The notes beneath the pieces are model-generated. The model worked only from the letters and a program-made list of their open reading frames with translations. It was not told the origin of the DNA and searched no databases. This document shows positions 35,601 to 38,600 of a stretch of 64,000 nt of DNA, one piece after another. Source of the stretch: Hypomesus transpacificus (lineage: Eukaryota > Chordata > Actinopteri > Osmeriformes > Osmeridae); the NCBI RefSeq assembly GCF_021917145.1, contig NC_061082.1, positions 19,577,952 through 19,641,951 on the forward strand, written 5' to 3'. Positions within the stretch are counted from its first letter, which is position 1; the number at the start of each line of letters is the position of its first letter. The position numbers and the translations under genes are program-made.

Positions 35601-38600
35601 TTAAGAGAGAAATACACAAATAAAACCATCTACTTTGGGGAGCGTCAGGGTTCCTGCCAATGTGCCAGCACACAAACAGCGTGCAGTCTGCAATCAGCAG
35701 GCCTCAACACGTAGCTGCAGTGACGGACCTAAACGTTGCGTTAAACAAGCGCTTTTATAAGTGTTACTTAATACAGAAAAATGGAAACCTACCAGTGTTC
35801 TTCCAGCGACACCACCGCGGGCAAAACGTGCCAAACAATTCAAACGATTGGCGTTACTCAGTCAGGCGGAAACAGCTGATATAGACACCACCCCTGAGAG
35901 GGCATGTACCCAACGCACTGCAAGTCAGCCATACCACAATGATTTAATTTGTTTGTATTTTCACAGGCAACTGGATCTCAGATTGGCATGATTGTGAACT
36001 CCTTAACTAACATCGGAGCCTCGTTCATCATCGCCTTCTACTTCAGCTGGAAGCTCAGCTTGGTCGTCATGTGTTTCCTGCCTCTGATTGGACTATCGGG
36101 GGCCTTCCAAGCCAAGATGCTGACAGGCTTTGCAAATGAGGATAAGAAGGCAATGGAAGACGCAGGGCAGGTAATATAGGCCGGACGCCTCTTCACCTTC
36201 CAGCAAGCTCACCTTTGGTTCTGCTGCATAGCATCTCAGAGGGATTTGTCGGAGCCAGACTGACTGCCTCAGCAGCTGAACTATCCGCTCTCTCTCCCAC
36301 GCCAGGTGTCCAGTGAGGCTCTTGCCAACATTAGAACCATCGCTGGTCTGGCCAAGGAGAGCGCCTTCGTGGATTTATACGAGCAGCAGCTGGAGGCTCC
36401 GTACAGGTCTGCCAAGAAGAAGGCCAACATCTACGGCATCTGTTTTGGCTTCGCTCAGTGCGTCATCTTCATGGCCTACGCCGCCTCGTTCAGATACGGA
36501 GGTTATCTGGTCAGCTCCGAAGGACTCAACTACATGGTGGTGTTCAGGTCCGTGTTCACGAGAACGCCACAAGCGCTGTTTTTACTCCACACAGATATCC
36601 CAGTTATCACTGCGTTCTTTATCAGGAAACAGAAACATGTTTACATTTTCGGACAGAACTTCCTCCAGCGTTGTGAAGATGTTGATGTTGTGTTGCAGGG
36701 TGATCTCAGCTGGATGTTGATGTTGTGTTGCAGGGTGATATCAGCTGGATGTTGATGTCAGTGTCGTGTGTTGCAGGGTGATCTCAGCTGGATGTTGATG
36801 TTGTGTTGCAGGGTGATATCAGCTGGATGTTGATGTCAGTGTCGTGTGTTGCAGGGTGATCTCAGCTGGATGTTGATGTTGTGTTGCAGGGTGATATCAG
36901 CTGGATGTTGATGTCAGTGTTGTGTGTTGCAGGGTGATCTCAGCTGGATGTTGATGTCAGTGTTGTGTGTTGCAGGGTGATCTCAGCTGGATGTTGATGT
37001 CAGTGTTGTGTGTTGCAGGGTGATCTCAGCTGGATGTTGATGTCAGTGTTGTGTGTTGCAGGGTGATCTCAGCTGGATGTTGATGTCAGTGTTGTGTGTT
37101 GCAGGGTGATCTCAGCTGGATGTTGATGTCAGTGTTGTGTGTTGCAGGGTGATCTCAGCTGGATGTTGATGTCAGTGTTGTGTGTTGCAGGGTGATCTCA
37201 GCTGGATGTTGATGTCAGTGTTGTGTGTTGCAGGGTGATCTCAGCTGGATGTTGATGTCAGTGTTGTGTGTTGCAGGGTGATCTCAGCTGTTGTGATCAG
37301 TGGGACAGCTCTGGGGAAAGCCTCATCCTTCACCCCAGACTACGCCAAAGCCAAGACGGCGGCGGCACAGCTGTTCAGACTGTTGGACCGGGTCCCCAGG
37401 ATCAACATGAACCACTCAGACGGGCAACAGTGGGTGAGGGACCAACACGTTTGGATTTCCATCTGTTTGAAAAAAGAAAACGTTTACATTTATAAATTTA
37501 AACCAATGTATGTTGCTAAGCCTAAAGCACACGCGCAAATAGTGAATACAGTCAGCACAGAAGATTGTAAGACTAGAAGTACACTGTTGCCTGGTTTTCA
37601 CAAGTAACCTCAAACACAAAGTCCGATTCCACTTTGACCTGTGGTGAACCCATGATCTCTATCCTGCAGGATGATTTCAGAGGGGAGGTTGAGTTTGTCC
37701 ACTGCAGGTTCACCTACCCGAGCCGGCCGGACGTGCAGGTGCTGAGGGGCCTGGCGGTGTCGGTGAAGCCCGGGCAGACCCTGGCGTTCGTGGGCAGCAG
37801 CGGCTGTGGGAAGAGCACCAGCGTCCAGCTGTTGGAGCGCTTCTACGACCCCGACGAGGGCCAGGTGGTAGGTACCGCCATGCACACCGTCCTCTCTCAC
37901 CAAGATACACTCATCAAACCACATCCTGACGTTTCGGACATTCTATGCGAGCAGTTTTGCGACCGGCTGTGTTTGTTGACGTGTGCTCTCAGCTGATCGA
38001 CGGCCGTCCGTCCGTCAGCGTCAGCGTGCCCTTCCTGAGGGCTCAGATCGGGATCGTCTCCCAGGAGCCCGTGCTATTTGACTGCAGCATCGCTGAGAAC
38101 ATCCAGTATGGAGACAACCAGCGGACAGTGGGGATGGAAGAGACTGTCGAGGCTGCCAGGAAAGCGTACCTCCATGACTTTGTTATGACCCTTCCAGACG
38201 TAAGTAGATGGCTCGTAGGCCTATGTACTGACCTATGACCTCTGTAGCACTGTATTATGAACTACTGTTATTGAGATGTTATTGTTGCACTGCATTTCAG
38301 TAATTGATATTTCGTGTTGCACTGCAGCATCATTTTGTTCATCATGCCTGCTAGCTGAGATGTGGTTACTTTGCATTGTATTTAGTAAAAACACATAGTT
38401 GTAATGTGACCAGTAAATACAATTCCTAGATTCTGGCAACTAAAATGCTGTTAGAACCGCGTGCTTCTATGTCCTTTCTGGTGTTCTAAACACCAGCAGT
38501 ATGGTATGAGACAGTCGTTGATGTGTTCATGCCTCCAACCCTCTCCCTGCTGGTGCGTCTCCGCCGGAGCAGAGATACGAGACTCAGGTGGGGGCTCAGG

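Follow-up and report, generated by a model that had tools for sequence, protein, structure and literature searches.

NAGNAG acceptors have AGs 3 nt apart and one branch point in common, and duplicated 3' splice-site substrates, reportedly the design of Reed and Maniatis in 1986, are a classic of the laboratory. In beta-globin substrates with a duplicated 3' splice site, in which 14, 55 or 205 nt of exon stood behind the upstream site, splicing was reported to use the distal site exclusively and to be very inefficient (PMC5389562). The three constructs described there behaved alike, so that report itself proves no length rule. Across the human transcriptome, alternative 3' sites showed an overall upstream preference that was strong in the short/short intron class and fell significantly in the long/long class; where flanking introns were large, preference went to the sites nearest across the exon, and the long-short class behaved like exon definition, with a switch near 250 nt (PMC9225289). 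In a potato RdRp gene, a two-copy tandem duplication was reported to span the intron end and exon start, so that the downstream copy inherits the branch site, tract and AG, while a cryptic donor makes a second intron that is seen in RNA reads (PMC4974935). Tandem repeats in or near teleost genes have been described in haddock and cod, where their density is extreme (PMC5894186), and in the growth hormone (GH) and MSTN-2 introns of sea bream (PMC3045353).

The array described here, in an intron of abcb11, shares with the beta-globin substrates a tandem acceptor with identical local signals, and one of those constructs likewise had 14 nt of true exon behind the upstream copy, presumably a coincidence. 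Those substrates were synthetic and held two copies, whereas the abcb11 array is natural and holds fifteen, spaced by 35 or 43 nt. As in potato, the duplication spans an intron end and an exon start. Like the fish repeats it consists of tandem units in a teleost gene, but unlike those repeats as their reports describe them, it runs over the splice junction into exon sequence, with the result that the splice site itself is copied. Several AGs compete, as at NAGNAG acceptors, but here they lie 35–43 nt apart, each with its own branch-point-like motif, which places the array outside that class. In the available text of the open-licence literature that we searched, we found no natural duplicated-acceptor array beyond the two-copy potato case, which is no proof of absence; what was available of the chicken MUC2 paper (PMC3549977) and of PMC12480690 had no bearing on acceptor arrays. 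Boundary-spanning duplication and laboratory acceptor duplication are already known, and the abcb11 case is unusual for its copy number.

The window is a stretch of 64,000 nt (contig C23, 19577952-19641951), and genome-wide searches were run over the 437-Mb assembly of 376 contigs. The window contains reading frames recognised by eye that we take to be lrp2-, dhrs9-, abcb11- and cers6-like, a gene content and order by which we take the DNA to be teleost. The abcb11 gene lies on the plus strand, and our model comprises 24 placed exons (30174 to 39222), all open, that follow the 5'-most part (first 50 residues). The joined product of 1275 residues aligned with residues 51-1321 of the human bile salt export pump (BSEP) at 1961 bits, vs 1437 bits for the next-best family, ABCB4-like, over the placed length. 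Since BSEP ranked above other ABCB pumps over that whole length, the gene is ABCB11 by sequence similarity, as the preliminary description of this DNA had it, and the copy in the window looks intact.

The array sits in a 729-nt intron (36548-37276, plus strand). The exon upstream of it (36306-36547, plus strand) is open, ends in TTC AG/gtccgt and matches the ABC_membrane domain (PF00664, E 6e-16). The exon downstream (37277-37433, plus strand, 157 nt, donor TGG/gtgaggg) is also open and is followed by an intron of 236 nt; 17/23 placed introns are shorter than 250 nt. The residues VFRVISAVV are unbroken across this intron position in human BSEP, a solved protein (VFR/VISAVV), and the true acceptor is therefore the AG at 37275-37276, with the exon beginning at 37277. 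GC content is 0.586 in this exon and 0.486 in the array. The exon is the 20th of the 24 placed and the fifth from the end. Human ABCB11 has 28 exons, and this exon corresponds to human exon 24; the number 23 given to it earlier should therefore probably read 24, unless only coding exons were counted.

A copy scan and Tandem Repeats Finder (TRF) placed a minisatellite at 36683-37290 (plus strand) that extends across the 3' splice site as far as the 14th base of the exon. The 20-mer TTGCAGGGTGATNTCAGCTG occurs in 15 copies at 36693-37290, with a chance expectation of 0.00 (100 shuffles), and the final copy is the acceptor of exon 37277-37433. Twelve copies, 11 of the decoys plus the real site, are exact, and three (36728, 36806, 36884) carry one C-to-A change and read ATATC instead of ATCTC. 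This bears out the earlier description of a unit carrying the 3' splice site followed by 14 bases of exon, with fourteen decoys upstream of a real site whose last intron base is 37276. TRF reported a period of 43 with 13.6 copies at 36724-37290 and a period of 35 with 2.3 copies at 36683-36754, units within the range of about 10-100 bp that defines minisatellites. Each unit holds an intron end, an AG and an exon start, as expected of tandem duplication across an intron-exon boundary.

Copy spacings run 35, 43, 35, 43, 35, 43 and then 43 eight times, which reproduces the alternation on the left and uniformity on the right noted before. The alternating part (36683-36932, plus strand) holds 35- and 43-nt units; the first exon-like bases of decoys 1-7 are 36699, 36734, 36777, 36812, 36855, 36890 and 36933. 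The homogeneous part (36933-37276, plus strand) consists of eight identical 43-nt units (8-15), with the bases after the acceptors at 36976, 37019, 37062, 37105, 37148, 37191 and 37234 for decoys 8-14 and at 37277 for the real site. The identity of these units makes recent expansion, as proposed earlier, plausible; the outward direction proposed with it found no support. Every unit contains a TTGAT motif, a TG-rich tract, TTGCAG and the exon's first 14 bases, and TGTGTG occurs 9 times and TGTGTT 14 times in the array. The 43-type unit is the 35-type plus eight bases, and TTGAT then lies 22 rather than 14 nt before the exon-like start. The distance is 22 nt at ten decoys and 14 nt at four (decoys 1, 2, 4 and 6). 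At the real exon it is 22 nt, and the TTGAT there (37252-37256, plus strand), a motif match from a yTnAy scan, is a candidate branch point (A at 37255).

A genome-wide pattern search with the 20-mer returned 23 matches: 15 exact, all in the abcb11 array, and 8 with two mismatches elsewhere. The viral contigs searched gave 0 matches. Within 5 kb and at ≤3 mismatches over 20 nt, the acceptor of exon 37277-37433 has 14 further junction copies, and the other 23 abcb11 exon starts and the 24 exon ends have 0. The distance from the donor after 36547 to the first decoy is 151 nt, likely the length of the intron before expansion.

Use of a decoy would be non-productive, as previously predicted. All 14 decoys, joined in frame to the upstream exon, read FRVISAGC*, a stop after six added codons, and in that sense each would be a poison splice site. 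With the real site counted, the intron has 49 AGs, and a single splice reads on through the exon in an open frame from just two of them: the real site, with exon start 37277, and an AG inside the last unit (37260-37261, plus strand), whose use sets the exon start at 37262 and adds 15 nt in frame. A second splice does not rescue the decoys. None of the 813 two-intron outcomes from a decoy through a GT to the real site kept the frame, and the 14 that were locally stop-free each added one base. With any AG as first acceptor, 91/2502 two-intron outcomes kept the frame, and the 30 listed all start at non-decoy AGs. Intron creation starting from a decoy was rejected on this ground. The upstream copies, with no decoy-first outcome in frame, are therefore probably all intronic, in contrast to the potato case as reported, and we found here no potato-type gain of a second intron with a recruited donor and a translatable message from a duplicated acceptor.

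We scored the acceptors with a small matrix built from 19/23 other abcb11 acceptors, four being dropped because their boundaries were off by 1-2 nt. The real site scored 6.56, as did 8 decoys; 2 decoys scored 6.74 and 4 scored 7.33, so the real site is not the strongest of the fifteen. How the last of fifteen near-identical sites is chosen is, as stated earlier, a genuine question. The best local score in the intron, 9.17, belongs to an AG upstream of the array (36624-36625, plus strand; exon start 36626), use of which would leave an intron of 78 nt. Local strength was rejected as a discriminator, since with this small matrix all 14 decoys score at least as high as the real site. Pyrimidine content is 0.53 at all fifteen acceptors. 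The predicted accessibility of the last 15 intron bases (unpaired probability) with both exons included was 0.35 at the real site and 0.26-0.40 at the decoys; folding of the intron alone gave 0.52 vs 0.27-0.40, a difference that we take as an end effect of the prediction. RNA folding was likewise rejected, as in exon context it failed to set the real site apart. Every unit has its own branch-point-like yTnAy match, TTGAT, and a branch point outside the array, which the preliminary description had suggested looking for, is therefore not needed. Because strength, pyrimidines, accessibility and branch point do not mark the real site, context remains: the last copy alone precedes the full 157-nt exon and its donor, and each decoy precedes 14 exon bases and then more array.

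A second abcb11-like gene lies on contig C12 (10249000-10264000, loci L023 and L024), where 20 exon pieces, the part of the gene that we joined, gave a protein of 1141 residues without a stop. It lacks the acceptor-copying array; the array in its homologous intron is a different one and stops 20 nt short of the acceptor. Tandem arrays are dense in this region, with TRF arrays covering 18% of the window. The abcb11 gene in the window has four further arrays within 30 nt of exon edges (one acceptor, three donors), none of them crossing, and the C12 paralogue has arrays within 30 nt of 4 acceptors and 7 donors, also none crossing (21 exons, with approximate boundaries). In the two abcb11 genes, then, arrays often stop at exon edges and rarely cross them. 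A (TC)49 tract at 32535-32632 continues without a break up to the AG of one abcb11 exon (32635); in the C12 paralogue, the corresponding exon has a similar (TC)n tract (L023:3348-3493). In the lrp2-like gene, a 29-nt array at 13630-13863 ends seven bases before an exon start (ctatcag/gtgtggtc) and excludes the AG.

We consider it probable that the minisatellite was born by tandem duplication across the intron-exon boundary and has been tolerated because the real site mostly wins, with decoy use as a minor leak and the array no regulator. The founding duplication would have had one breakpoint ~20-30 nt upstream of the exon and the other 14 nt into it, which would account for a unit made of a branch-point-like motif, a TG-rich tract, an AG and 14 exon bases. 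The array would then have grown to 15 copies and become uniform on its exon side. The message would still be made mostly correctly because the last acceptor alone is closely followed by a full exon and a 5' splice site, the decoys by 14 exon bases. As the intron grew from some 151 nt to 729 nt, recognition may also have passed from intron definition to exon definition, to the advantage of the acceptor nearest the exon. Decoy use, where it occurs, would be a small non-productive loss cleared by nonsense-mediated decay. Most likely the array itself would be neutral or mildly harmful.

That the last site is mostly used we infer from the distal-only splicing reported for the beta-globin substrates (PMC5389562) and from the exon-definition data (PMC9225289) taken with flanking introns of 729 and 236 nt; site use in this reading is a prediction from sequence and literature. 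A serious counter-argument is that abcb11, with 17/23 introns under 250 nt, may be read by intron definition, so that upstream acceptors, the first decoy among them, would be favoured; the overall upstream preference reported for alternative 3' sites (PMC9225289) points the same way. The first decoy at 151 nt from the donor and the top-scoring AG before the array (exon start 36626) also speak against preferential use of the last site, and two-copy substrates may be a poor guide to the behaviour of 15 copies.

A heavier cost is conceivable, in which 20-80% of transcripts use decoys and are destroyed and copy number lowers pump output, a leaky hypomorph that would be tolerated because a second abcb11-like gene exists. 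Decoys scoring at least as high as the real site, the stop after every one of them, the predominance of short introns and a C12 paralogue whose 1141 joined residues reach 1930 bits against human BSEP all fit such a loss, which we nevertheless think unlikely: with 24/24 placed exons open the gene still looks selected, at 1961 vs 1930 bits (over different joined lengths) neither copy looks decayed, and the reported synthetic duplications were spliced to the distal site only (PMC5389562). The preliminary description suggested that copy number could modulate pump expression, which found no support here. An unstable repeat with a graded number of stop-generating acceptors is an architecture through which abcb11 could be tuned, under selection or in normal physiology, by splicing coupled to decay, and the TGTGTG and TGTGTT copies make the tract UG-rich, a type bound by TDP-43 and CELF proteins. 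It is nonetheless highly improbable that array length serves as such a rheostat; arrays lie near exon edges in both abcb11 genes without crossing and TRF arrays make up 18% of the window, so an array at this place needs no special reason.

There is a very slim chance that splicing goes in steps, first to an upstream acceptor and then through another intron that takes out what is left of the array; this would resemble potato RdRp, where a boundary-spanning tandem duplication was reported to have made a new intron (PMC4974935). Each abcb11 unit does contain a donor-like AGG/GTGATC or AGG/GTGATA that matches 6/9 consensus positions, equal to the exon's real donor, and starting from any AG some outcomes are in frame (the 91/2502 given above), but none of the 813 that start from a decoy is, the locally stop-free ones each being one base out. 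Hardly more credible is an assembly artefact in which the array is real and the number 15 is wrong. The identical units 8-15 form the pattern most easily mis-sized, set against which the array is, at 608 bp, short relative to long reads, its unit variants are ordered and not random, and the sole gap in the window, a 100-N run at 4437-4536, appears typical of scaffolded long-read assemblies. We return to duplication across the boundary, with the real site mostly winning, as the preferred account of the array.

A second case emerged from a weaker array match on contig C157 (69195-69293; 75%, E 2e-6), which comprises 2.6 copies of a 42-nt unit, TGTGTTGCAG/GGTGACCGTGGTGA, before a collagen exon. 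Here a boundary-spanning acceptor array (L025:3196-3303, locus taken from C157, 66000-72000) provides two decoys before a 108-nt exon. The last acceptor yields the 108-nt exon, and the two decoys would yield exons of 150 and 192 nt, in frame and open. Exons of 108 nt are usual in collagens, and the peptide of this exon and the next matches Pfam Collagen (E 2.3e-10). The decoys break the Gly-X-Y register with GVVVLQ, and the last acceptor was therefore taken as real. The case was found because TGTGTTGCAGGGTGA is common to it and the abcb11 unit, and so it shows recurrence, not frequency.

Further cases were sought at 50 sampled loci, of which 20 came from the abcb11 protein search (several of them from this gene and the C12 paralogue) and 30 were kinase matches; arrays were counted where they overlapped the matched stretch. 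Within the matched exons two loci were flagged, the abcb11 array itself and L015, and no third case was found; L015 was rejected as a boundary-spanning array as its array begins after the donor. Among thirty collagen loci, 12 rows were flagged, 11 with a period of 18 nt and 1 with a period of 91 nt; these look like collagen coding repeats or simple tracts. A genome pattern of three TTGCAGG in a row had 366 matches vs 87 for the reversed pattern, which we do not take as enrichment because the reversed word contains CpG. A 36-nt unit that includes CTGTGTTGCAGGGCTTGTTCACAG is repeated about 17 times at C1:3730521-3731142, and a Pfam Collagen match at C1:3736586 follows 5.4 kb further on in the same orientation; the repeat is possibly a third acceptor array. 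Another candidate from this pattern lies at C4:4417393-4418074. It seems very unlikely that boundary-spanning acceptor minisatellites, from the 14 decoys in abcb11 to the 2 in collagen, form a recurrent class in this repeat-dense fish genome whose length tunes the amount of correct message, as a heritable, fast-mutating splicing dial.

Choice among identical splice sites has so far been studied with built two-copy constructs, and here fifteen near-identical natural sites lie in one intron of a conserved gene. The abcb11 array is a natural and extreme version of that classic laboratory experiment, with a second, in-frame case in a collagen gene. Exon starts at such arrays can be misplaced in annotation by multiples of the unit. 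If decoy use is graded, repeat length would be a direct handle on gene output; if the last site is almost solely used, context, meaning the exon and its downstream donor, would outweigh fourteen equal competitors.
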